DNA from: a virus
Length of the DNA: 64,000 nucleotides
Strand: one strand, 5' to 3'
IMG/VR virus record: IMGVR_UViG_3300046463_000715
Span: 1 to 64,000 of that record
In this document: piece by piece, positions 4,057 to 58,521 of the stretch
Layout: each line of letters opens with the position of its first letter
Position numbering within the stretch: the stretch's first letter is position 1
The notes under the pieces: model-generated
Databases searched by the model: none
What the model was told of the DNA's origin: nothing
The model's input: only the letters and a program-made list of their open reading frames with translations
Program-made: the position numbers and the translations under genes

Positions 4057-4734
4057 TTACAGGTTGCCGATTAAACTCGTGAGCCCGGACTCTTGCGCGA
4101 GCCCCGGTTTATTGTAGACAGCGGTGCTCGGTGTCGCAACCTGTCCGGTCGAAAGTCCTGAAACTAATCCGGCCTGCGTTTGCAGCGGGCTCATGTATGC
4201 GCCTGGGACAGCTCCCAAATAACTTAGCGGGACGCCGGTTGCGGTCGCGAGCGCTTGCGGAGCCTGCGATTGCAGCTGACGTTCGGCCATGTAATTCTGG
4301 CCGATGACCTGAGCGTTCTGGCCTTGCGCCTGACCGGCAGCGGCAGCGCGGTTCGCTTCCTGGGCCTGCTGGTTCGCCGTGGAGAAGCTCATTCCGGAGC
4401 GCGCAAACTGGGAACGGATGCGGGCGTCCTGGTCTGCAGAAGCGGAGAGGGCGCGATTGTAGTTCGCGTCGAGCTGGGCCTTGAGCTGAGGGGAGCCGCT
4501 GAGGTAGCTTCCGCCAGCGGTCTTGCCAGCTTCAGCGGCAGCGGTTGCCCAGCCTGGGTCGGCTGCAGCGGTCTTGAGCCCGCCAGCGTAAGCCTGGGTG
4601 CCAGCGTTGATTGCGCCCTTGTTCTGGTCGAGCTGGCTGTAGATGTTCGAGCGCTGTTGCTGGCCCTGACCCGTCATGGTGTCCAGGACCTGCGGCTGGT
4701 CGGTATATTTCTGTGTCGAATTGCAAAAAGGCAT
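4057..4734 (-). CDS. Putative internal virion protein, Ala/Gln-rich helical
   Basis: A 225-aa protein with long Ala/Gln/Asn-rich helices (residues 30-160) and a Gly/Pro/Ser-rich tail. It resembles in composition the small internal proteins of short-tailed phages (such as T7 gp14), which line the ejection channel, but no sequence signature proves this. The start ATG follows a GGGGAG ribosome site. A good phage promoter lies at 4754-4782, so this gene may head the internal-protein unit running to the giant gene. Confidence 0.7.
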   Translation of the reverse strand: MPFCNSTQKYTDQPQVLDTMTGQGQQQRSNIYSQLDQNKGAINAGTQAYAGGLKTAAADPGWATAAAEAGKTAGGSYLSGSPQLKAQLDANYNRALSASADQDARIRSQFARSGMSFSTANQQAQEANRAAAAGQAQGQNAQVIGQNYMAERQLQSQAPQALATATGVPLSYLGAVPGAYMSPLQTQAGLVSGLSTGQVATPSTAVYNKPGLAQESGLTSLIGNL

Positions 4735-22312: not shown

Positions 22313-23854
22313 TCAGTAATACCGTTTAGCCCGATTTGGGGTCGGCTTCACGTCGAGCGGACCGGTTAAACCCTTTTTCCCCTCGACCTCGGCGCGGATA
22401 AGTTTCAAGCAGTTGAACTTGCCGTAGCGCGATGCGTCCGCGATATGGTCGAAGTTGCCGCCGGACGGTCCTTTGAGCGGCTCGTCTCCTCCGAAGCCCG
22501 CCTCACCCTCGACAGGATACCGGTAGCCGCCCAGGCTCGCGACGTAAAGCATCGGGCAGCACTCCTTGTCGATTTGATAAATGTGGTTGCCCCACGAGTC
22601 TTTCTTTTCGAGGAGCCGGTTGTAGACGGCGATTGACTCCGAGAGACCCATCCGCATGAAGCCAGGATAAATTTCGTAGGTGCTCAGCACTTTGATGTTG
22701 GAGCCGAGGGAGGTCTTGGCGTTGCCCGCTGGGTCGCAATAATCCTTCACACCGTTGCAGACGGAGCGGTCATTCCAGAAAGGGAAAACTGTGTTCGTGA
22801 TTTCGAGGACGGCTTTACACTGCCGGTCGGTGTCGGACTGCATCGAGAATTGTTCCGCGAGGTCCCACCAGTATTCGTCCTTGCCCACGGTCCAGTAGGC
22901 GGAGAAGACACACGAGTTGGTCGCACCGAAGTCCCACGAGCGAATCAGATATGCGCCCTTGGGCCACGGCAAATCTTTTTTCGAGTGCGGCTCCTCGAAG
23001 GCGTAGAACACGGGGGTGCCGTTGAAGGCCTCGGCGTATTCTCCGAGCACCATCCGCTTATACATCGCAGCGTTCTTGCGGTATTGCCGCTCCAGGTCCT
23101 GGACGTAGTTGGGCGGGAGGTTGTGTGCGTTTTCTTTTGTCGGGATGTGCCAGAAGCGAACAGCGACGTCGTCCTTGGTCTCCTCTTCATACGATGCAAT
23201 CCAGTGGCGCGGAGAAGGAGGATTTGTGTCGAGGATGACGCAGGTGTCTTTGATGAAGCCACGGGGGTCACACGTCTCCGGGTCCGCGCCCTTCCATCGC
23301 AAGCAGGCGACTCCGAGGTCGAGGTCACCACGCGAGAGCTGGTCGGCTTCGACGAAGATGAGCATTGAGCACTCGTAACCCCTGAACCGTGTTGCGGAGT
23401 AGCGCTCCTCGGGGACACCGGCGAATTGAATCCAGCTGCAGAACTTATTGCCGACAGCTTCGAACCATTGGAGGATTGCACTCTTCGGCGCGGCTGGGTT
23501 CATCGCCTTCCATGCGTTGAAGAGCTCGACGGCTTTCTTCGACGGGATGCGATAAGTTTTTCCACCGTCGATTTTCTTGAAGAGCGAGACACCTGTGTCC
23601 ATGTATGCGGTGCCGAGTTTCGGGAACACTTGCTTTTCAAAAGTTTCGAGAGTCGTGTCTTCGTTCGAGTCCTGAGTCTTCCGGAGAATGTAAATTTTGC
23701 CGCCAGCATTCCAGAAGCCGTGGCCGACTGCTTCCATCGCAATCGCTGTGGTTTTTCCAGTTCCACGACCACCGATGAGAGCGCGCACACGGCACTTGGT
23801 CGCGTGGAATTCTTTGATTGAGTTACCTGGAAAATACCACTCAGCTGTCTGCAT
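22313..23854 (-). CDS. terL: Terminase large subunit
   Basis: A 513-aa packaging motor. The N-terminal ATPase has a Walker A-type loop GGRGTGKTT (residues 28-36) and a Walker B segment MLIFVEAD (about 164-171). The C-terminal RNase H-like nuclease begins at a SWDFGATNS motif near residue 300, with a second acidic cluster at CDPAGN. It pumps DNA into the head through the portal and cuts the concatemer. The gene follows a terminator at 23859-23894. A likely small subunit is far away at 30650-31363. Confidence 0.9.
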   Translation of the reverse strand: MQTAEWYFPGNSIKEFHATKCRVRALIGGRGTGKTTAIAMEAVGHGFWNAGGKIYILRKTQDSNEDTTLETFEKQVFPKLGTAYMDTGVSLFKKIDGGKTYRIPSKKAVELFNAWKAMNPAAPKSAILQWFEAVGNKFCSWIQFAGVPEERYSATRFRGYECSMLIFVEADQLSRGDLDLGVACLRWKGADPETCDPRGFIKDTCVILDTNPPSPRHWIASYEEETKDDVAVRFWHIPTKENAHNLPPNYVQDLERQYRKNAAMYKRMVLGEYAEAFNGTPVFYAFEEPHSKKDLPWPKGAYLIRSWDFGATNSCVFSAYWTVGKDEYWWDLAEQFSMQSDTDRQCKAVLEITNTVFPFWNDRSVCNGVKDYCDPAGNAKTSLGSNIKVLSTYEIYPGFMRMGLSESIAVYNRLLEKKDSWGNHIYQIDKECCPMLYVASLGGYRYPVEGEAGFGGDEPLKGPSGGNFDHIADASRYGKFNCLKLIRAEVEGKKGLTGPLDVKPTPNRAKRYY

Positions 23855-24099: not shown

Positions 24100-24108
24100 A
24101 GATTTGGG

Positions 24109-24180
24109 TGCAGGAGCTGGATTTGAACCAGCGACCTTCTGGTTATGAGCCAGACGAGCTACCTAGCTGCTCCATCCTGC
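24109..24180 (-). tRNA. tRNA-Met (anticodon CAU)
   Basis: The minus strand folds into a full cloverleaf. The acceptor stem pairs six of seven positions, the anticodon arm is TCTGG-CTCATAA-CCAGA, and the T arm is GCTGG-TTCAAAT-CCAGC. No CCA is encoded, so the tail must be added by an enzyme. CAU reads Met; a lysidine-modified Ile tRNA is possible and cannot be excluded from sequence. Confidence 0.9.
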
Positions 24181-24189
24181 AGAAAATTG

Positions 24190-24944: not shown

Positions 24945-25018
24945 CCAGGGGTTTCCCCGGGGCTCGGATTAGTAAGATATTTGTTGACACCTAACCGGTG
25001 AGGGTATACCGTATCCCC
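24945..25018 (+). promoter_or_regulatory. Three-copy promoter/operator module, copy 1
   Basis: Read rightwards: CCAGGGG-TTT-CCCCGGGGC, then GATTAGTA, then TTGACA (24984-24989), 17 bases, TACCGT (25007-25012), then ATCCCC directly before the ATG at 25019. Closely matching modules precede the genes at 40939 (minus) and 58522 (plus). The GGGG-CCCC-GGGG block sits about 30 bases upstream of the -35 and looks like a binding site or stem-loop. Transcription should begin at or next to the start codon. Confidence 0.65.
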
Positions 25019-26098
25019 ATGAACGAACGACAGAGCAGAATGGAAGAGCTGAAGGCGAAAATCGCCGAGCTGAGCAAGGCCCTCGAAGCCTCCTTTAACG
25101 CTGCCCAGAACGACGAGCTGGTGAAGGCCGACGATGAATTCTACCAGCTGTCCCTCGAAGAGGAACGTGCCTTCCGCGCCCCTCACAACCCCTCGAATTT
25201 CCATCCAGAAGACTACGAAGTGGTCGAATACCTGGACAACCAGCCGCCCCGTCTCGCGAGCTTCTGCGCGCCCCTGAGCTCCTTCTCGGACCACCAGCGC
25301 TCGGTTGAGGCTCACCAGCGGATGATGGACGCCTGGAGGAAGGAAATGGACTTCTTCTTCCCGAACCGTCGCGAGCACAAGCCCTCCATCCACCAATGCA
25401 CCCACTGCGGGAACACCAGGGTCCGCTACATCGTGGCCTGCCTGCACAAGCCCTCTGGCCAGCACGTCGTGTTCGGCTCGGACTGTGTCGAACGCCTCGG
25501 CTTTGCCAACCAGTCGTCCTTCAAAGCCGCCCAGATTCGCTCCCGCGCCGAAGCTGGCAACGCCCGCATGGCTGCTTTTGTAGCGCGCCAGAAGTTCCTC
25601 GCTGCGAACCCGAACGTCGCTGCCGCGATTAATGACCTGACCTCTAATGTCGAGCTCCACAAGCGGAACAATTTCGCCCACGACATCCTGGCGAAGTTCA
25701 ATAAATACGGGAACATGAGCGAGCCCCAGCAGTATCACTTTGTGAAATCCCTGGAGCGCGACCACGAGTTTGCCGCCCGCCGTGCCGCCGAAGACGCTGT
25801 GCCGAAGGGTGAATTCCCCAGCGGTCGCATCCAGTTCACCGGCGAAGTCATCAGCGTCAAACAGCAGGAAAGCGATTTCGGCATCCAGATGAAGTGCCTC
25901 CTGAAAATCATTTCCGAGGTCGGCACCGGCTGCAAAGTCTGGATGACCCTCCCCTCCGGAGCTGGCGAGGTCTCCCGTGGTGACCGTATCGTGGTGAAGG
26001 CCGGACTGGAAGTCTCGAAGGACGACAAATCCTTCGGATTCGGGAAGCGCCCGCACTTCGTGTCTAAAATTGAAAACACCCCGGCAGTTGCCGCTTGA
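25019..26098 (+). CDS. Zinc-binding protein of unknown function
   Basis: A 359-aa protein. Residues 1-30 form a coiled-coil helix (SRMEELKAKIAELSKALEAS). Around residue 125 there is a treble-clef-like zinc site (QCTHCGNTR, then HKPSGQHVVFGSDCVERLGF). A basic helical middle follows, and residues about 265-350 are a beta-rich domain (GRIQFTGEVISVKQQESDFG). I chose ATG 25019 over an in-frame upstream codon because of the module at 24945-25018. Nucleic-acid binding is likely but unproven. It is the first gene of a short plus-strand island and probably early. Confidence 0.8.
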   Translation: MNERQSRMEELKAKIAELSKALEASFNAAQNDELVKADDEFYQLSLEEERAFRAPHNPSNFHPEDYEVVEYLDNQPPRLASFCAPLSSFSDHQRSVEAHQRMMDAWRKEMDFFFPNRREHKPSIHQCTHCGNTRVRYIVACLHKPSGQHVVFGSDCVERLGFANQSSFKAAQIRSRAEAGNARMAAFVARQKFLAANPNVAAAINDLTSNVELHKRNNFAHDILAKFNKYGNMSEPQQYHFVKSLERDHEFAARRAAEDAVPKGEFPSGRIQFTGEVISVKQQESDFGIQMKCLLKIISEVGTGCKVWMTLPSGAGEVSRGDRIVVKAGLEVSKDDKSFGFGKRPHFVSKIENTPAVAA

Positions 26099-26123
26099 CA
26101 GTCCGCCGGGAGTAGATTAAATA
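26095..26123 (+). promoter_or_regulatory. Promoter for 26131 unit
   Basis: TTGACA (26095-26100) overlaps the stop codon of the preceding gene. A 17-base spacer and TAAATA (26118-26123) follow, and the start codon lies 7 bases further on at 26131, so the leader is very short or absent. Confidence 0.6.
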
Positions 26124-26130
26124 TAAGCCT

Positions 26131-26400
26131 ATGAATTCGACGTTTGGATTTCACGGTCTCCTGAAGGATGCCATAAGCGAAGCCCGCAAGCTGGCAGTAA
26201 AATACGACGAGTCGATTAGGGTCTGGGACATCGCCAGCAAAAAGGACCCGGACTGCGAGGTCCAGGGCGTGGCGAAGTCTTACACCCTGGCAACAGACGA
26301 GGCCGACAGAAGGGTCAGCGGTATAATGGTCGCGAGGGTGTGGCCGGGAGGGACCTTGGATGTCTATTCAAAGCGGTTTGCAGAAAGAAACGGACTGTGA
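26131..26400 (+). CDS. Small protein of unknown function
   Basis: An 89-aa protein with an N-terminal helix (LLKDAISEARKLAVKYDESI) followed by beta strands (SGIMVARVWPGGTLDVYS). Its stop overlaps the GTG start of the next gene as GTGA. No family recognised. Confidence 0.6.
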   Translation: MNSTFGFHGLLKDAISEARKLAVKYDESIRVWDIASKKDPDCEVQGVAKSYTLATDEADRRVSGIMVARVWPGGTLDVYSKRFAERNGL

Positions 26401-26510
26401 AAAAGAAACCGATTAAAATCCGCCGGACTTGGGGCACGCTCAAGCCGGTCACCAGGGTCAAGGGTTCAAAGAAAATCTACCGGCGCGACAACCGGCCCCC
26501 GGCGGAGTGA
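26397..26510 (+). CDS. Very small basic protein
   Basis: A 37-aa, strongly basic peptide (MKKKPIKIRRTWGTLKPVTR) with a GTG start coupled to the preceding stop. It carries a GGAG sequence at its 3' end that serves the next gene. Too short to classify. Confidence 0.5.
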   Translation: MKKKPIKIRRTWGTLKPVTRVKGSKKIYRRDNRPPAE

Positions 26511-26514
26511 TATT

Positions 26515-26646
26515 ATGCTACTCATATTCGTCAGCTTTTGCATCGGCCTGTGTTTGCTCTTCACCGCAATCGGTGCGGCCTGCCTCGTCGCCAAGTGGGC
26601 CTGGGAGAAGCTGGTCGACCTTATTCAGGTCATCTTCCAGCGGTAA
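26515..26646 (+). CDS. Small single-span membrane protein
   Basis: A 43-aa peptide with one hydrophobic span (MLLIFVSFCIGLCLLFTAIG) and a short amphipathic tail (WEKLVDLIQVIFQR). A GGAG ribosome site lies 9 bases before the ATG. Last gene of the plus-strand island. It might be a small lysis or membrane-remodelling peptide; unproven. Confidence 0.55.
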   Translation: MLLIFVSFCIGLCLLFTAIGAACLVAKWAWEKLVDLIQVIFQR

Positions 26647-26748
26647 GCTCCAAAGCTGGACGCACCGCAGCAGGTAGAAGTAATTCCCCTTCGGGTCTTT
26701 CTTGAGATACCGCTTCAGCCGGTGCGGGTTACAGCAGAGCAGGGTCAC
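26518..26748 (-). CDS. Doubtful small ORF opposite the membrane peptide
   Basis: A 76-codon frame with a GTG start. Its first half (CNPHRLKRYLKKDPKGNYFYLL) looks protein-like, but its second half is antisense to the 43-aa membrane gene. It could be the last gene of the leftward cluster or a chance frame. No ribosome site is visible. Confidence 0.3.
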   Translation of the reverse strand: MTLLCCNPHRLKRYLKKDPKGNYFYLLRCVQLWSLPLEDDLNKVDQLLPGPLGDEAGRTDCGEEQTQADAKADEYE

Positions 26749-26756
26749 AAAAACTC

Positions 26757-26879
26757 AATCGCGCCCGGGAATCGAACCCAGTCCTCTCGGTAGGCAGTGG
26801 CAATTTTCCCACGGCAACCCAAGTGTGTCGAAGCCACCTGAAGCGAGCGCTCGCCCAGGACGCACAACACTGACGCGAT
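26757..26879 (-). ncRNA. tRNA-like element with long insert (not a standard tRNA)
   Basis: The minus strand has a 10-base closing helix (TCAATCGCGT with GCGCGATTGA, spanning 26882-26873 and 26764-26755, with one G-T pair). A canonical T arm, CTGGG-TTCGATT-CCCGG, lies directly inside its 3' side, as in a tRNA. The enclosed body is about 123 bases, too long for a normal tRNA. It contains a GC-rich hairpin around GCGAGCGCTCGC and another around GTGG/CCAC, and no convincing anticodon arm. It may be a degenerate or intron-bearing tRNA or a tRNA mimic. Confidence 0.45.
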
Positions 26880-27045
26880 TGATAAACTCATGGTCGAGGG
26901 TCGATGGTGCTGAAGGCGCATCTGCACCGCTCACACCCGACAAAATTCTGGCCCCACTGCCGCCAAGTAATGTGGTGGTGCTTGCGGTGGGCCACGCGAC
27001 ACCATAAAATCGCGAGGCGTAATTTGAACAGCTTCATGTCAATTC

Positions 27046-27085
27046 AATTGATTTTACGTCGACTCAATTGATTTTACCGAGTCAA
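27046..27085. repeat. 20-base tandem duplication at gene end
   Basis: The core TCAATTGATTTTAC occurs twice with a 20-base period, covering the last codons and the downstream bases of the 97-aa gene. The TCAATTGA core is palindromic. It may be a slippage duplication or a pair of operator half-sites. Confidence 0.6.
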
Positions 27086-27347
27086 CGTCTCCCGTTACGA
27101 TTTTCCTCCAGCGCTTCGCGATGTCGAGCGGTCCCGGTTCGCTGTGCTTGCCGTCGCTGTTGTCGTAACCCAGGACCTTGTTCATGTCCAGAATCGACTG
27201 GCCCCGGCTGGAGATTTCGACGTCCATGAGCTCGATAATTTCTCGGAGCCTTCTCTCCCGAATGTCGTCGGGATGAAAACAGTCGTCGATTAATTGCGAA
27301 GCCTCTTCGGCGAGCGGGCTGAGCTCGTAACCTATTGGACCTTTCAT
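27054..27347 (-). CDS. Small protein of unknown function
   Basis: A 97-aa protein. I take ATG 27347 because it overlaps the preceding stop as ATGA, the usual coupling in this cluster; a longer GTG start at 27410 would overlap the upstream gene by 67 bases. Helical segments are LAEEASQLIDDC and RERRLREIIELMD. The last codons lie in a 20-base tandem duplication (27046-27085). Confidence 0.6.
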   Translation of the reverse strand: MKGPIGYELSPLAEEASQLIDDCFHPDDIRERRLREIIELMDVEISSRGQSILDMNKVLGYDNSDGKHSEPGPLDIAKRWRKIVTGDVDSVKSIEST

Positions 27348-27580
27348 GATTTTGTTCTGTAGGAGTTGCAGCCGAACGGTCGGCCAATTAGTGTTGAGAT
27401 TGAGTGACACGTCGTGCAGGGCCTGGACGAAAACTGGTGCGGGTCTTTCTCCGTCAGTTCCAGGGCGACTTCCAACTGAGCGGAGCGCGCTGCCGATTTC
27501 AGAAGCTGAGTCTGGGCCTTGAGCTCGTTCTCAAGCTCTTCAATCCGGTCGTTCATCGCTGCCCATTCCGAAGCGCTCAA
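27344..27580 (-). CDS. Small coiled-coil protein
   Basis: A 78-aa protein with a clear coiled-coil helix (MNDRIEELENELKAQTQLLK) and a Cys-containing tail (RPCTTCHS). The most upstream start is TTG 27580 (TTGA overlap with the preceding stop); ATG 27556 is an alternative. Its stop is coupled to the next gene. Function unknown. Confidence 0.5.
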   Translation of the reverse strand: MSASEWAAMNDRIEELENELKAQTQLLKSAARSAQLEVALELTEKDPHQFSSRPCTTCHSISTLIGRPFGCNSYRTKS

Positions 27581-28074
27581 TTAACGTTCCCCCGGCTAGG
27601 GTCGGTGCAAAGGTCGCACTCGCACTTGTAGGTGTGCTTGATTTCGGGGAGGTTCTTGACCTCGGGGACGGGGAATCCAACAAGAGCTTCTCGGCAGTGC
27701 TTACAGTTCGGGTCGTAGGCCTTGTGGTCACGGATGTGGCGCAGCCTGCGGCCTTCAGCTCGGACAGCATCACCGTGAGCTCGTGCCTTCTCCCGTTTGG
27801 CAGCACGCACCAGGGGGACCGCGAGAACAACCCAGGTCGTGTTAGCAATCACCAGGGCGACTCCCCCGGCGAAGCTGGCCCACTGCCCGAGCTGAGGGTA
27901 GTAGAATAAATTCCAGAAGCCCCACGCAGAGAAGAAAGCTGAGACTCGCCAATCGACTCCCTGGACGCTGCGGTCGCGCAGAAGGCGTTTGACGTTTAGC
28001 CAGCAAACAACTCCGCCGGTCAGTTCGAAGGCACCGTTAACGAGGTCGGGTATGTTAATCATTCCAATGTTCAT
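27577..28074 (-). CDS. Membrane protein with PQ-loop-like half and Cys-rich tail
   Basis: A 165-aa protein. Residues 5-90 contain three hydrophobic spans, with SVQGVDWRVSAFFSAWGFW and YYPQLGQWASFAGG. The YYPQLGQ stretch recalls PQ-loop (SWEET/MtN3-like) transporters, which act as dimers of three-helix units. Residues 95-165 are soluble, basic, then Cys-rich (CKHCREA and CECDLC), a probable zinc site. It may place a metal-binding domain at the membrane; substrate and role are unknown. Confidence 0.65.
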   Translation of the reverse strand: MNIGMINIPDLVNGAFELTGGVVCWLNVKRLLRDRSVQGVDWRVSAFFSAWGFWNLFYYPQLGQWASFAGGVALVIANTTWVVLAVPLVRAAKREKARAHGDAVRAEGRRLRHIRDHKAYDPNCKHCREALVGFPVPEVKNLPEIKHTYKCECDLCTDPSRGNVN

Positions 28075-35442: not shown

Positions 35443-36432
35443 TTATAGTTTCCTGGTAGACGCTCGGGCCATTCGCCAGAAGTTTCTGATAGAACTCTGA
35501 TAGAACTGCGCGAACCCTACCACTGTGCCGTTGAGAATCTGTTTCGAAAACTCATCGAACAGCCGCTGCTTAATCCAGTCGGTCTCCTCGGCCAGGATGT
35601 CGGCCTGAATCTCTCTGCAGAGCGGGCCAATGTCCTTGTTCTCGTTCGTCAGCTTACCGGCTTCGCGCAGGTGCTGAATAGCCTTGAGCCAGCGTGCCTC
35701 GGTGCGCAAACAGTTCGTGAGCTTCTCGACAATCTCTTTCGCTCCGTCCTTGCCTGGGTTGCCAGGGATAGTTGCGCGCTTCTCTTTGAAAGCAGGCGCG
35801 ACGATTTTAGCAGTCATCGGGGCCTTCGCTAACCTGTGGTCGAGCGGTGTCGAGCTCTCGGATTCGGGGTGAACCTTCGAGTAGTTCTTCACCACCACAC
35901 CCTCGACCTTTACACCACCGAGCTGAGACTCGCGGGAGTGATACTCGCCGAAGCTGTCGAAGTTCGTAGTCACCGGAAGGTAGCCCTGGTAAAAGACCTG
36001 GACCGCTTCGATGCCGAGCTCTGCTGCCCACATTTCACGCGCACCGCGACCGGCGTAGGAGCCATCCGGCAGTCGGACATCGAACAGCACGAGGTTGTTC
36101 TTCGGCACGCGAGAGTAGGCCAGGATGTTGTGCTTCGGCTTCGCGAGATACTCGCATTGAAAGATAAGGCCTTCGAGGCTGACGGTGTGACTGCTTCTGT
36201 AGAGCACCATCTGCACCGCGCCCACGGCGTTGCTGAAGGCCAGCTTAAACATGCCCGGGTCGTTGGGGTCAATCGGCTGGCCCTTGCTGCGGCACTCAAT
36301 CTTGCCGTTGACGACACCGAAGCTGAATTGCGAGCCGTCGATTTTCTCCTCGACCTGGACGAGGTCTTCGAAGATGCAGCTGTTGTGGCGCTGACCTAGC
36401 GCGTAGATTTTCGGAATGCTTGGGAGGTTCAT
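35443..36432 (-). CDS. RNA ligase (Rnl2-like)
   Basis: A 329-aa nucleotidyltransferase. Motif I is EEKIDGS with the nucleophile Lys30. LVLFDVR (114-120) is motif IIIa-like, EGVVVKNY (177-184) is motif IV and AKIVAPAFKE (208-217) is motif V with its second lysine. The C-terminal 100 residues are helical. Such enzymes join RNA ends through an enzyme-AMP intermediate. In phages they repair host- or toxin-cut tRNAs. Another RNA-repair-type enzyme is encoded at 37118-37924. Confidence 0.8.
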   Translation of the reverse strand: MNLPSIPKIYALGQRHNSCIFEDLVQVEEKIDGSQFSFGVVNGKIECRSKGQPIDPNDPGMFKLAFSNAVGAVQMVLYRSSHTVSLEGLIFQCEYLAKPKHNILAYSRVPKNNLVLFDVRLPDGSYAGRGAREMWAAELGIEAVQVFYQGYLPVTTNFDSFGEYHSRESQLGGVKVEGVVVKNYSKVHPESESSTPLDHRLAKAPMTAKIVAPAFKEKRATIPGNPGKDGAKEIVEKLTNCLRTEARWLKAIQHLREAGKLTNENKDIGPLCREIQADILAEETDWIKQRLFDEFSKQILNGTVVGFAQFYQSSIRNFWRMARASTRKL

Positions 36433-37117: not shown

Positions 37118-37924
37118 TTACTGAGGGCTACCCAGGGGTTCCCTGGTGCTCTCCGCCGGGAGGTGCGCAACGTGGCCCGGGTCAATCGCAGGGTCGACCT
37201 CGCGCAGCAGTCCGCAGATGATTCGAGAGAATACCCGAGGGGCACTGTCTGCAGCGAGCTGTGCAGAAGACTCGCCGTCGATGTTCGGCATGAGCTTCGC
37301 GAAGTCCACACCCTCGACAAGTCTGGTGATGACATCGGCCAGAGAGTCGAGAGGGATGCGGTAACCCTTCTGGTAATACTTCAGCACGCGCAGCATCGAA
37401 CCACCAGCGTCTTCGTTGCGAACTGGGTTGCGGTAGATGAGCCGCTTCCCAGCAACGTCGCAGTAGAAACGCTCGTCGCACACTGAGTGCCAGTCGGTGC
37501 CGGTCCAGCTGAACGCAGCGCAGCAGCAGGTGAAGTCGAAGCTGTCGGCCACGCTCCGGTCCGAGCCGAAGCTCCAGCGGTGGATGATTTGAATGGTTGG
37601 CTTGAAGGCCAGCAACGTGTAGGCGTTGTCGGTCGTCCAGATTCGGTTCAGCTTTTTGCCGTCTTCAGCGGTGAACTCGTCGCTGCTACTGTCGGGCAAG
37701 TCGAAGAGCTCGGCGTTGAGCGTCATCGCCAGGAGCAAAGCCGTCTGCTTGTCCGGGCAGAAGACGTCGATGTCGTTGATTGGGTCCCCGGCGACGATGG
37801 AGCGGAGGAAGCCCCCGCCGACAAAGATTTTGTTAGCCCACTCCGGGCGCTTCATTATTGTCAGAAGCTGCTTCGGGGTTCGGAGGAGTGCAAACTGCAG
37901 GTCGTGATACGTTAGACTGTTCAT
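37118..37924 (-). CDS. Nucleotidyltransferase (tRNA/poly(A) polymerase head-like)
   Basis: A 268-aa protein. IFVGGGFLRSIVAGDPINDIDVF (residues 33-55) is the class II nucleotidyltransferase signature (GG...R...DxD) of CCA-adding enzymes and poly(A) polymerases; Asp51 and Asp53 should bind Mg2+. A second domain (LRVLKYYQKGYRIPLDSLAD) resembles the neck helices. Together with the RNA ligase it suggests RNA-end processing, for example restoring CCA to tRNA, since the phage tRNA-Met encodes none. The start is shared with an overlapping gene by 92 bases. Confidence 0.7.
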   Translation of the reverse strand: MNSLTYHDLQFALLRTPKQLLTIMKRPEWANKIFVGGGFLRSIVAGDPINDIDVFCPDKQTALLLAMTLNAELFDLPDSSSDEFTAEDGKKLNRIWTTDNAYTLLAFKPTIQIIHRWSFGSDRSVADSFDFTCCCAAFSWTGTDWHSVCDERFYCDVAGKRLIYRNPVRNEDAGGSMLRVLKYYQKGYRIPLDSLADVITRLVEGVDFAKLMPNIDGESSAQLAADSAPRVFSRIICGLLREVDPAIDPGHVAHLPAESTREPLGSPQ

Positions 37925-40050: not shown

Positions 40051-40580
40051 ACCGATACCTTCTCACAAGCCACAACACTTGTCAAATTTTTATTTACGCA
40101 TACCGGAAGATTAATAGCACCAGGGCGTTGCAGCTTCGGGGTGACCTCGAAGGCATACCGCACACGGCGATTTAAATTGGTGCGCGCATCGCAGAGCCTG
40201 CCGTCGACAACTGCCATCGCGTGGCCCGAGACCGTAATAAGATACCGCTTGCCGTGGTCGCAGGCCCGCAGGAAGGTTTTGACGGTCATTCCGGCGCGCC
40301 TTCCGTTCCAGACCCCGCTCTCGTTGTAGAGCCACTTCGCCTCGACGACCGTGCCATAGGGCTTGACCAGATTGTGACCGGCGATTTTCCAGGTCGAGAA
40401 GCCCTTCTTCCGCTTTCTGCCCATGCGTTTTAACAGGGCCTGGGCCTCGTCCCAGAGAATGTTCAGCGCGTAAGCGGTCGCTGTGACCGTGCAGCAGTTG
40501 CAATCGTCCAGGTCGGTGATTTTCTTCTGCCCGCTGCTGAGGCAGACGTGCAGCTGAGGGTCTGGGAAAAATACGCTCAT
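40047..40580 (-). CDS. Papain-like cysteine peptidase-fold protein
   Basis: A 177-aa protein from ATG 40580. A cysteine-rich helix start (DLDDCNCCTVTATAYALNI) and a distant SGHAMAVVDGRLCDA match the Cys...His...Asp/Asn order and spacing of small papain-fold (C39-like) peptidases. It could process a host or phage protein early in infection, or act as a lytic enzyme. It lies second in the leftward cluster, which favours an early role. Family and activity are inferred from pattern. Confidence 0.55.
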   Translation of the reverse strand: MSVFFPDPQLHVCLSSGQKKITDLDDCNCCTVTATAYALNILWDEAQALLKRMGRKRKKGFSTWKIAGHNLVKPYGTVVEAKWLYNESGVWNGRRAGMTVKTFLRACDHGKRYLITVSGHAMAVVDGRLCDARTNLNRRVRYAFEVTPKLQRPGAINLPVCVNKNLTSVVACEKVSV

Positions 40581-40939
40581 ATTCTGTTGTATTTCGAACG
40601 GTCCAGGGACTTGTGGTTGTCGTCGGCCCGATTGAACCAGACGGTCTTTACGAAGGCCTCTGAGCCCACCGGCGCGCCCAGGACCATGACGAGGTCGAGC
40701 TCGTCGCTGTAGGGGAAGCGAGCCACACCCCAAACGGGTTTGCCGTCTTCCATTGTAACCTCGACGATGTCGCCGACTTCAAACTCGGCTGAGCCGAACT
40801 GCTCGGCGCGTCCGTAGCGGTCAATGTCTGCCTCTTTTTGTGCATGGTATCCCCAGCGCAGGCTGAGCTTGCTGGCCCAGAGCTGAGCCGCCCCGGCGGG
40901 TAGCCCGAGCAGCTTGTGGTAACGTCCGTTTTTAATCAT
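40577..40939 (-). CDS. First gene of leftward early cluster, unknown function
   Basis: A 120-aa protein with a basic helical N-terminus (LLGLPAGAAQLWASKLSLRW), a small beta-barrel middle (VGDIVEVTMEDGKPVWGVAR) and a charged end. It is driven by copy 3 of the promoter/operator module at 40940-41013, whose -10 ends 5 bases before the ATG. Function unknown. Confidence 0.65.
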   Translation of the reverse strand: MIKNGRYHKLLGLPAGAAQLWASKLSLRWGYHAQKEADIDRYGRAEQFGSAEFEVGDIVEVTMEDGKPVWGVARFPYSDELDLVMVLGAPVGSEAFVKTVWFNRADDNHKSLDRSKYNRI

Positions 40940-41013
40940 GCCTCAGCTTACACCCTGGCGCTCCGCACGCAAGCCGGAAAATCTACTAACCGTGGCCCCG
41001 GGGCTTCCCCTGG
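40940..41013 (-). promoter_or_regulatory. Three-copy promoter/operator module, copy 3
   Basis: Read leftwards: CCAGGGG-AAG-CCCCGGGGCC, ACGGTTAGTA, GATTTTCCGGC, TTGCGT (40972-40967), 16 bases, TAAGCT (40950-40945), GAGGC, then ATG at 40939. It is very similar to copy 2 at 58446-58521, including TTAGTAG-TTTTCC and CGCC-GGGTGTA. A 9-base inverted repeat (GCAAGCCGG at 40969-40977 with CCGGCTTGC at 41054-41062) overlaps its -35. Confidence 0.65.
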
Positions 41014-41525
41014 TAGAGGGTCCGTAATCGCTCTGTAAAATAAAGTTCGACAACCGGCTTGCCCGGGCCTATTGTGCTCACAGTTCTTTGAGAGTTTGAA
41101 GTCGGTTGAGGGCAAATCCTCTGCGGGTCAAGCCCGCTAGCATCCGGACCCGTCAGTCCGGAAGGGTGATGAGCTCAATGTAAATACGCTGCAATGCTGC
41201 TGTGGTTTGAGTCCCGCTTGACACCGGGGCAGAGGGCGAGAGCAGAGGGCAGCGGGGAAAAGCAGGGGATAAGCCCTCAGCCGATTTTTTCGCCTCAATC
41301 GAGGAACCGGTGCCTTGCCTTCAATGGTGACGCAACGAGACAGAAACGGGAGCCGAAAGCTCACGAAATTTCTTGGCCGGTTTGCAGGTCGGTAACTGCG
41401 GGCGAATTTTATGGTCCCGATAGGCTGAGGCCCGAAACCGCTACACTGGCGGCTGCGACCGAGGGAACCGGAACAGGTAGTGCTGACCGGGAGAGGGTTT
41501 GAATCCCTCCGGGACTTTTGATTTT
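41014..41525 (+). other. Non-coding, strongly structured region (candidate RNA gene)
   Basis: About 510 bases between divergent units with no credible gene. Perfect short hairpins follow one another on the plus strand: GCGGG-TCAAG-CCCGC near 41123, TCCGGAC-CCGTCA-GTCCGGA near 41143, GAGC-CGAAA-GCTC near 41350 and GCAG-N8-CTGC near 41384. A tRNA-like element closes the region (41413-41517). A TAAAAT at 41036 could be a -10. The density of paired elements suggests one or more structured RNAs rather than plain spacer; no known RNA family is recognised. Confidence 0.5.
41413..41517 (+). ncRNA. tRNA-like element, about 105 bases
   Basis: GGTCCCG (41413-41419) pairs over seven bases with CGGGACT (41510-41516, two G-T-type or terminal wobble allowed), and a T-arm-like hairpin GAGGG-TTTGAAT-CCCTC sits directly inside the 3' strand, as in a tRNA. 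The T loop lacks the invariant C, and the 70-base body has no clear anticodon arm. It ends 9 bases before the next gene. A degenerate tRNA, a tRNA mimic or a chance fold are all possible. Confidence 0.35.
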
Positions 41526-41660
41526 ATGGCACACAAACGAAAAGACACATTGGTCGCTCCGAAGCAGTGGTGGAAGCACCTGCGCGACTGGAAGCGACCG
41601 CAGAACAAGGCCGAGAGGCGGGCAGCGAAACTAAAATTTGACAAGCAAAACGACCTGTGA
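41526..41660 (+). CDS. Small, strongly basic protein
   Basis: A 44-aa protein (MAHKRKDTLVAPKQWWKHLR) with about one third Lys/Arg. First gene of the long rightward unit. It may bind DNA or RNA; no ribosome site is obvious. Confidence 0.5.
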   Translation: MAHKRKDTLVAPKQWWKHLRDWKRPQNKAERRAAKLKFDKQNDL

Positions 41661-43425: not shown

Positions 43426-43631
43426 ATCATATCCTATACCTGAACCAGAGCGCTGTGCGCAAACTGGTCAAAGAAAACGGCAAGCGGTGCTCGGGGGAAT
43501 TCCTCCTGGCCCTGGACGACCTCGTCCGGAGCCGAGTAGTCGCCGCTGCCAAAATCCATAACGGCGGGCGGGTTACACTCGACGCATCTGTCCTGGGACA
43601 CGTCTCGGGAGCAAGGCTGCACAATGCCTAA
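43422..43631 (+). CDS. Histone-fold-like small protein (tentative)
   Basis: A 69-aa protein whose layout follows a single histone fold. Helix 1 is SAVRKLVKENG and loop KRCS. Long helix 2 is GEFLLALDDLVRSRVVAAAKIHNG. Loop GRVTL carries the Arg-x-Thr pair. Helix 3 is DASVLGHVS. Small bacterial and archaeal histones share this pattern of G-x-R-x-S and GR-x-T loops, and bind or coat DNA as dimers. The call rests on pattern only. It overlaps the next gene by 8 bases and precedes the replication genes. Confidence 0.5.
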   Translation: MNHILYLNQSAVRKLVKENGKRCSGEFLLALDDLVRSRVVAAAKIHNGGRVTLDASVLGHVSGARLHNA

Positions 43632-43950
43632 GCTAGTCAGAGCTCTAACGTTCCGGGCTGCGCTTGACCAAAAGCTGGTCACGATTGCCCGGGCCTTTGG
43701 CTCTGCTGCTGAGGGGGCGCGGCAGTGTGGGGTAACTTATCGGTGCTTCGCTAGGTGGAAGACCGGTTTCCCCGCTGCCGCGCTGCTTCAGAAAATCGAC
43801 GACGTCTACGCGATGGCTGTCGAGCTTCTGAACGACCCGGAGCTGATGAGGAAACGCCGAGCGACCTCGAAGAAAATCGTCAGCCTCGCCATAAAGCTGA
43901 GGCTGAGCCGGAAAACAGTTCAGCTGCTCCAGGAGCAGGGACTCTATTGA
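43624..43950 (+). CDS. Putative HTH DNA-binding protein
   Basis: A 108-aa helical, basic protein with a likely helix-turn-helix at residues 24-52 (AFGSAAEGARQCGVTYRCFARW) and a second helical hairpin at the end (SLAIKLRLSRKTVQLLQEQG). It may be a transcription regulator. It ends 2 bases before the promoter at 43952. Confidence 0.55.
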   Translation: MPKLVRALTFRAALDQKLVTIARAFGSAAEGARQCGVTYRCFARWKTGFPAAALLQKIDDVYAMAVELLNDPELMRKRRATSKKIVSLAIKLRLSRKTVQLLQEQGLY

Positions 43951-48649: not shown

Positions 48650-49681
48650 ATGGTTAAAGCATCACTCCGAAACGCCAACGCTGGCAGCGCGACTAAATCG
48701 CCAGCAACGAATAAACCCGTGGTCGACGTAACTGCTACGGTCACCACCAGCGCTCCCGCGACCAGTCACACGGTCGAGGAAGCCAATGTCGACAACGTCC
48801 TGGCTGACATCGCGGAAGCCGCGCAGCTGAACGCTGCCGAAGAGGTTCCCGAAACCGCTCCCGCGACTACCGCTGTGGCGACTCGGCCCACCAACACCGC
48901 TGTCGGTCGCCCCGTGCAGCACGAGGAAGGCTTCGAAGGCGACTGGGGCAAGGAAGACCTCAAGTTCCCGCAGCTGAAGCTCGTCCAGGGCTCTGGCCCG
49001 CTCTCGCAGCGGTTCAACAACGGGACCATCATCTTTGACGACGAAAAGCTGTTGCCAGCTCCGAACGTCGAAGAGGGCGCGGACAATCCGCTTATCACCT
49101 TCGTGCCTCTCATCATCACGAAGCAATACCGCGAGAAGCTCTCGCAGGAAGACATCGACGACGGAGCCCTGCCCCGCATTGCGAGCGGCATCGCTGAAGT
49201 CGAGGAGCTCGGCGGCACGACCCGCTACGTCAACAACGAACGACCGGACAATTACTGGGAGCCCAGCTCTCGGTGTATTTTCCTCATCGAGCGTCCGAAC
49301 CACGACGCAGCTGCGGAACACCCGGGCTTCAACGAAGTCTTCGACGGCAAGGAATTTGCCGTGGCAGTCTACTACGCCGCTGGCGCAGCCTTCACGGCTT
49401 GCCCGAAGGTGATTTACAACACCTATCGGAAATCTCTGTTCATGCCGATTCTCGGCGCGGACAAGACCCCGCTCGTGGTCGACGGTCGCATCCAGAAGCG
49501 TCCGTGCATCTACAAAAACTACTGGAGCCTGGGCTTCGCAAAGGTCAAGGCCGGTAAGTTCAACCCCTGGCGTCCGTATGTCCGGCTGCAAAAAGTCGAG
49601 ACCGGCCCCGAGGTTCGCGAGTATTGTGCAAACCTGCTCCAAGTGGCTCCGCAGGCTCCGCACGATGACGACGCAGTATAG
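48650..49681 (+). CDS. Probable ssDNA-binding protein
   Basis: A 343-aa protein. Residues 1-95 are Ala/Thr/Pro-rich and disordered. Residues about 100-330 form a beta-rich core (EDLKFPQLKLVQGSGPLSQR, RCIFLIERP, VVYNTYRKSLFMPILGADK-like stretches) ending in an acidic tail (HDDDAV), as in phage ssDNA-binding proteins. The location between a DUF2800 nuclease and a primase-helicase supports a DUF2815/SSB-like role. Inferred from context and pattern. Confidence 0.6.
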   Translation: MVKASLRNANAGSATKSPATNKPVVDVTATVTTSAPATSHTVEEANVDNVLADIAEAAQLNAAEEVPETAPATTAVATRPTNTAVGRPVQHEEGFEGDWGKEDLKFPQLKLVQGSGPLSQRFNNGTIIFDDEKLLPAPNVEEGADNPLITFVPLIITKQYREKLSQEDIDDGALPRIASGIAEVEELGGTTRYVNNERPDNYWEPSSRCIFLIERPNHDAAAEHPGFNEVFDGKEFAVAVYYAAGAAFTACPKVIYNTYRKSLFMPILGADKTPLVVDGRIQKRPCIYKNYWSLGFAKVKAGKFNPWRPYVRLQKVETGPEVREYCANLLQVAPQAPHDDDAV

Positions 49682-58445: not shown

Positions 58446-58521
58446 TCCAGGGGAACCCCCGGGGCCACGATTAGTAGTTTTCCTGGGTTGCACTCGTTTC
58501 GCCTGGGTGTATGCTCTCCCC
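58446..58521 (+). promoter_or_regulatory. Three-copy promoter/operator module, copy 2
   Basis: Read rightwards: CCAGGGG-AAC-CCCCGGGGCC, ACGATTAGTA, GTTTTCCTGGG, TTGCAC (58488-58493), 16 bases, TATGCT (58510-58515), CTCCCC, ATG 58522. The downstream message should be leaderless. It shares long identical stretches with copy 3 at 40940-41013. Confidence 0.65.

Follow-up and report, generated by a model that had tools for sequence, protein, structure and literature searches.

A candidate tandem array of structured, partly tRNA-like noncoding RNAs where two gene blocks of a phage genome diverge

The stretch of DNA analysed (hereafter the window) comprised 64,000 of the 65,867 bases of virus record IMGVR_UViG_3300046463_000715, and its gene content included a terminase-like protein, an SU10-type capsid protein, a family A DNA polymerase, a helicase and an RNA ligase. 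The sole ordinary tRNA found in it was a tRNA-Met at 24105-24181, 17 kb from the locus described here; these are the ARAGORN coordinates, Rfam placing it at 24108-24181, and nothing else in the window reached the gathering cut-off of the Rfam tRNA family (RF00005). The first leftward ORF beside the locus, 40577-40939 (- strand), corresponded to phrog_24108, with relatives in Xanthomonas phage XacN1 and in Streptomyces phages. The leftward block also encoded a nucleotidyltransferase-like protein (37118-37924, - strand) with the motifs GGGFLR and DIDVF, for which pairwise alignment with a FoX4 phage protein gave 42% identity. In PHROG it matched one nucleotidyltransferase family and otherwise families without an assigned function, and a Pfam search with it gave no match. 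The idea that it might be a CCA-adding enzyme was dropped, given that PolyA_pol was found in neither of the two records searched and that no credible solved relative was found. The features of the locus and its surroundings were as follows:

35443-36432, leftward block: RNA ligase
40945-41013 (-): promoter/operator-like element lying outside the RNA, with the box CCAGGGGnnnCCCCGGGG and, by eye, the leftward hexamers TTGCGT and TAAGCT at a spacing of 16
41047-41075 (+): candidate rightward promoter for M1, TCGACA and TATTGT at a spacing of 17
41099-41288 (+): M1, a predicted RNA of ~190 nt with a closing helix of 15 bp plus 9 bp round several hairpins
41123-41137 (+): hairpin GCGGG/TCAAG/CCCGC
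41143-41162 (+): hairpin of 7 bp with the loop CCGTCA
41194-41502 (+): longest internal ORF, 102 aa
41285-41290 (+): six T in a row where the M1 closing helix ends, which is the insertion point in the relative
41289-41406 (+): M3, 118 nt, with a 7-bp closing stem (TTCGCCT/GGGCGAA), a long branched arm and a T-arm-like hairpin
41350-41362 (+): hairpin GAGC/CGAAA/GCTC
41413-41516 (+): M4, a predicted tRNA-like RNA of 104 nt with acceptor, T-arm and a long variable-like arm
41526-41660 (+): small ORF of 44 aa, the first rightward one, immediately downstream of M4

Scans of viral_contigs showed the locus in one close relative, IMGVR_UViG_3300046454_000614 (55,450 bases; the labels L001, L004 and G001 below all refer to it). 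Identity between the two was 93-98% in the large blocks flanking the locus and 73-100% in the 22.6-36.1 kb blocks. Four further records, fragments of 12-26 kb, had the terminase gene in common with the window and gave no match to the locus; because they are fragments, its absence from them is not demonstrated. The 720-aa replication protein, used as query in the genome contigs, revealed no relative. Four records of the phages collection that matched over 25-37 bases with E about 7 were dropped, as was a match of IMGVR_UViG_3300044505_000028 to an M1 hairpin, that record being otherwise without nucleotide similarity to the window and having only weak translated matches to it, at a different place.

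An earlier sequence-only reading, from which the label 'early' for the two diverging gene blocks comes, had described 41014-41525 as a structured stretch into which no gene fits, containing perfect short hairpins in series and ending with a tRNA-like fold, and had recognised no named RNA family in it. These observations were borne out. The longest internal ORF loses its start ATG in the relative, where it is crossed by an 82-nt insertion and by small indels, and a crude coding model also left 40754-41525 free of genes, the same model truncating the real-looking ORF 40577-40939 as well. Perfect hairpins stand at 41123-41137, 41143-41162 and 41350-41362, and the terminal fold (41413-41516) has seven acceptor-like pairs with an adjoining 5-bp T-arm. 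Rfam, at gathering thresholds and at E values up to 10, gave no family match at its cut-offs in the locus, and ARAGORN, run on the region with several settings including introns, reported nothing at its usual cut-off. In the comparison with shuffled sequence that the same reading had proposed, the + strand of 40980-41525 folded better than shuffles (z -3.27), the value for the opposite strand being -0.94. The stretch is thus real, but its start had been set off the mark: 41014 is the edge of the repeat element 40945-41013, and a probable start for the RNA itself lies near 41082.

Within this stretch, the closing helix of M1 pairs 41099-41113 with 41273-41287 (15 bp) and 41116-41124 with 41262-41270 (9 bp). 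With -98.1 kcal/mol M1 was the strongest local domain of the + strand of the window (folding z -5.63, vs -3.77 for its reverse strand), and in 300 shuffles of the region no + strand domain came out as strong; on the reverse strand of the region, the observed value was reached by 17 of 300 shuffles. A domain of the - strand at 48730-48920 was slightly stronger (-99.3 vs -98.1 kcal/mol). A grid scan with 180-nt windows, 1394 of 1420 of which were computed, did not flag the region (lowest z there -1.45) because the two strands of the M1 closing helix never fell together inside one grid window. The lowest z of that scan, -5.71, belonged to 43649-43835 (+), inside ORF 43624-43950; among the + strand folds of the window, M1 alone is stronger than this one.

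In the relative, the aligned part of M1 differed by 16 substitutions, and the folds of both phages share the closing helices and three hairpins, with none of the 25 pairs of the closing helix differing between the two sequences. The hairpin 41143-41162 has an additional pair in the relative, formed by a T and an A added on opposite sides. With the structure predicted from the window alone, the substitutions broke 2 pairs vs a mean of 5.4 at random placement (P 0.024), with no two-sided change; with the structure from L001 alone, they broke 4 vs a mean of 7.6 (P 0.030), with one two-sided change. These figures supersede a stronger result obtained on the joint two-sequence structure (P 0.00045), in which one two-sided pair change appeared that is lost with the window-only structure. 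M3 differed by three substitutions, two of which form one compensatory change from a T-A to a C-G pair in its closing helix. Against random placement, on structures from each sequence alone, this two-sided change had P values of 0.019 and 0.039, and the count of broken pairs was unremarkable (P 0.71 and 0.17). Two-sequence shuffles of the pair counts were nearly powerless, with 251 of 500 (M1) and 249 of 500 (M3) reaching the observed values. Since the locus occurs in two records only, support from covariation is thin and comes from two two-sided changes, one in M1 and one in M3. The covariance search that had been suggested was carried out with an M3 model, which recovered its two source sequences and otherwise a single match at E 4.6.

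M3 is joined directly to M1, the final two T of the run 41285-41290 doubling as the first two bases of its closing stem. Its T-arm-like hairpin (41384-41399) has an 8-nt loop and adjoins that stem without a gap, and T-arm-like remnants could be read by eye in both M1 and M3. The folding z of M3 was -1.62. M4 has a more complete tRNA-like anatomy. In its minimum-energy fold, the acceptor-like stem 41413-41419/41510-41516 is formed by seven of seven pairs and adjoins a 5-bp T-arm at 41493-41509 (GAGGG TTTGAAT CCCTC), the loop of which is one position off the canonical pattern, with T in place of tRNA C56. A small D-like hairpin is also found, and at the position of the anticodon arm the predicted fold has a stem CCGCTA/TGGCGG with the triloop CAC, without a 7-nt loop and T33. 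M4 was detected neither by ARAGORN at its usual setting nor by Rfam at its cut-offs. When its threshold was lowered, ARAGORN made four calls in the 801 bases of the region, among them a tRNA-Ser at 41428-41517; as 98 such calls were obtained in L004, these calls weigh neither way. The folding z of M4 (-1.33) was near that of shuffles, and M3 and M4 folded together gave -0.51, with 49 of 200 shuffles as good; by energy alone the two are not special.

The arrangement of acceptor stem and T-arm in M4 was also compared with shuffled sequence. Under a strict definition, such an element arose on the + strand in 2 of 3000 shuffles of a 591-nt region and, under a looser one, in 22 of 2000 shuffles of the 801-nt region, both tests having been devised after the M4 element was seen. 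A strict scan of the whole window, which omits the ordinary tRNA-Met, returned three places (41413-41516, 26757-26880 on the - strand and 23756-23831), where 60 shuffles averaged 0.13 and never gave more than 1. The place at 23756-23831 lies within the terminase gene and was put down to chance. The loose scan gave 11 rows, falling at 7 places; its 60 shuffles averaged 4.3 and reached 11 at most, and by this measure the window was not clearly above shuffles. The tRNA-like pieces found elsewhere in the window and in the relative were the following:

26757-26880 (-), window: a second tRNA-like RNA, 124 nt, with acceptor AATCGCG/CGCGATT and T-arm CTGGG TTCGATT CCCGG
4614-4683 of L001: inserted tRNA-like piece with the loop TTCGAGC
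4819-4962 of L001: unrelated tRNA-like piece of 144 nt in the place of M4, with an acceptor-like stem and the loop TTCGAAC

The RNA predicted at 26757-26880 has a fully paired acceptor and a canonical T-arm, and its D-like and anticodon-position arms are expanded. It was reported by neither ARAGORN nor Rfam at their cut-offs, and it sits in a segment (26064-27703) without counterpart in the compared part of the relative. The piece at 4614-4683 is part of the 82-nt insertion of the relative, which interrupts the T-run where M1 meets M3; the piece resembles a tRNA by eye, and lowered-threshold ARAGORN called it a tRNA-Leu among the 98 calls already mentioned. A replacement beginning at 41410 removes M4 and the greater part of the 44-aa ORF from the relative, which has a different small ORF there, and similarity returns at 41633, within the tail of ORF 41526-41660. 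The 144-nt piece in the replacement had a folding z of -1.00 and so, like M3 and M4, did not surpass shuffles. Both pieces of the relative passed the loose acceptor/T-arm test, with two or more such ends occurring in 15 of 2000 shuffles of that region, and both failed the strict one, the T-arm being absent from their minimum-energy folds. The borders of the modules coincide with two of the three breakpoints between the window and the relative, and from this pattern of insertion and replacement the modules were read as separate units and not as one large RNA.

The candidate rightward promoter at 41047-41075 matches 9 of 12 positions, where 0.3 such matches are expected in the 1001 bases scanned, and in the relative both hexamers are identical and the spacer has two changes. 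The T-run at the end of M1 could possibly act as a terminator or attenuator. On the leftward side, the 69-nt element 40945-41013 has a copy at 58447-58515 that is 80% identical, and its 18-mer core, CCCCGGGGnnnCCCCTGG, is found in three exact copies, at 24945-24962 (-), 40996-41013 (+) and 58447-58464 (-), vs 0.16 expected even with up to two mismatches. Since each copy adjoins an ORF start and promoter-like hexamers (the latter read by eye), the repeat most probably combines a promoter with the site of an activator or repressor, belonging to the regulation of the phage.

Taken as a whole, the locus would consist of three or more separate structured noncoding RNAs arrayed in tandem on the + strand, co-transcribed as tRNA mimics, trimmed by the host and perhaps serving as decoys, a reading to which we give moderate confidence. 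What the sequence analysis itself established is how M1 folds, where the modules end and that M4 has acceptor and T-arm; for their transcription, processing, stability and function we infer the following course. Rightward transcription would yield a precursor RNA across M1, M3 and M4; M1, perhaps from its own weak promoter, would fold and partly terminate transcription at the U-run; M3 and M4 would be excised by host RNase P and the enzymes of the 3' tRNA end, and the excised modules would persist as stable tRNA mimics, whose most likely use would be to occupy host proteins that bind or cut tRNA. An acceptor stem next to a T-arm comprises the parts of tRNA that processing enzymes recognise, and M4 and the pieces of the relative retain this arrangement without a normal anticodon arm. 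The RNA ligase and the nucleotidyltransferase-like protein of the leftward block make a conflict centred on tRNA plausible; an action of either protein on the array RNAs would be conjecture.

Other explanations were weighed against this array. A long leader with control elements, which the sequence-only reading had also proposed, keeps its standing because the modules stand immediately ahead of the first rightward ORF at 41526. Here the M1 helix and U-run would stop rightward transcription unless the helix were opened by a ribosome, a protein or antitermination, and M3 and M4 would belong to the same leader. The six T that end M1 and the candidate promoter at 41047 agree with such a leader, which we nevertheless consider rather unlikely: the replacement of M4 in one block with the greater part of the first ORF would be odd for a control leader, no Rfam leader or riboswitch family matches, and the acceptor/T-arm anatomy would be left unexplained. 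In another reading, the hairpins and T-arm-like pieces would be unselected remnants of normal phage tRNAs, and the remnants seen by eye in M1 and M3, the gain and loss of tRNA-like pieces between strains and the likeness of the inserted piece to a tRNA (by eye and in its single tRNA-Leu call) point in this direction. Such a decayed tRNA array is nonetheless a decidedly unlikely origin of the locus, as M1, the strongest + strand fold of the window, has no tRNA shape and its substitutions break fewer pairs than random placement would, and as the acceptor and T-stems of M4 are still fully paired.

The analysis supports a structured noncoding region ending in a tRNA-like fold, but not the suggestion of a single ornate RNA some 500 nt long, of the GOLLD/ROOL kind and with its own tertiary fold. 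Length, phage origin and the z of -3.27 would suit it, but Rfam gave no match, the relative has an insertion between M1 and M3 and a replaced M4, and the locus does not adjoin a tRNA array; we regard such a single RNA as improbable. In favour of a replication origin, or of another DNA-level site where the two gene blocks diverge, are the position at the switch of strands and the nearby maximum of the cumulative GC skew at 40-44 kb. This proposal went unsupported and is very improbable, given that neither direct repeats nor an A+T-rich stretch were found, that the fold favours the + strand and that the skew turns at the point where the genes switch direction. Least probable of all is an attachment site in which the phage would carry the 3' end of a tRNA gene of its host. 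Positions 41493-41516 do resemble such an end, but the complementary 5' acceptor strand, which an attP core would not need, is present too, and the Phage_integrase and Resolvase models had no match in the record of the window or in the relative (two records, possibly incomplete).

By anatomy, the nearest known kind to the preferred array of separate tRNA-like RNAs would be the species 1 RNA (rnaC) of phage T4, the comparison with M4 being one of anatomy and not of descent. We know of no function for it. It is annotated as 'small, stable RNA; species 1 RNA' (139 nt), next to the species 2 RNA rnaD (119 nt), which showed no T-arm in our scan. Like M4, rnaC exceeds the usual length of a tRNA, has a 5-bp T-arm with a 7-nt T-type loop (canonical in rnaC, CCGGG TTCGAAT CCCGG), bears long arms in place of the normal anticodon arm, stands in a row with small-RNA neighbours and stays below the Rfam tRNA cut-offs (best tRNA-Sec, 17.5 bits vs a cut-off of 47). 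They differ in that the T4 small RNAs end a tRNA cluster, whereas the tRNA nearest to M4 is 17 kb off, and in that the rnaC acceptor is weak, with five of seven pairs at nearly the annotated ends vs seven of seven in M4. The accessible text of PMC2988022 does not mention rnaC.

Comparison with other families gave partial likenesses. The tmRNA keeps the acceptor and T-arm and has its other arms replaced; it was detected by neither ARAGORN nor Rfam, and M4 is much shorter. YrlA and the bacterial Y RNAs combine a closing helix with tRNA-like parts; a match to RF02553 and a Ro60/TROVE protein were each found in neither of the two records. The mascRNA of MALAT1 is an acceptor/T-arm mimic that steers tRNA-processing enzymes, and its model gave the lowest E-value of six sub-threshold Rfam matches, covering the 3' part of M4 (41479-41516, 18.2 bits, E 0.81), a score far under its gathering threshold of 42.5; mascRNA is eukaryotic. 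With tRNA proper (RF00005), M4 has in common the acceptor beside the T-arm, but it has no anticodon arm of the tRNA kind and falls below the gathering cut-off. GOLLD and ROOL, both included in Rfam according to the accessible text of PMC12286853, are likewise structured phage RNAs of unknown function; unlike them, the locus had no match to the Rfam models, and its modules are separate, shorter and outside a tRNA island.

A bolder form of the array reading, which we find doubtful, would have it that the tRNA mimics are exchangeable cassettes devoid of an anticodon, accompanied by M1 as a new RNA of 190 nt, that they act as host-trimmed decoys against tRNA-targeting defences and that strains swap them to track those defences. 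If the array reading itself holds, small stable tRNA-like RNAs of the T4 species 1 kind would be a modular class of phage genes and not an oddity of T4, and a class of this sort would be overlooked by tRNA finders and Rfam. The swapping from strain to strain offers natural variants for probing the function of such RNAs. Among the matches listed by a literature search, whose coverage mostly excluded subscription journals, no array of this kind was described. Another small cassette, of 90 nt, was observed directly behind the tRNA-Met of the relative (L017 1481-1570, reverse strand; G001). It was present in one of the four records compared, being missing from the window and two others, and it ends in a T-arm-like hairpin and ACCA, followed by ATTTTATG.
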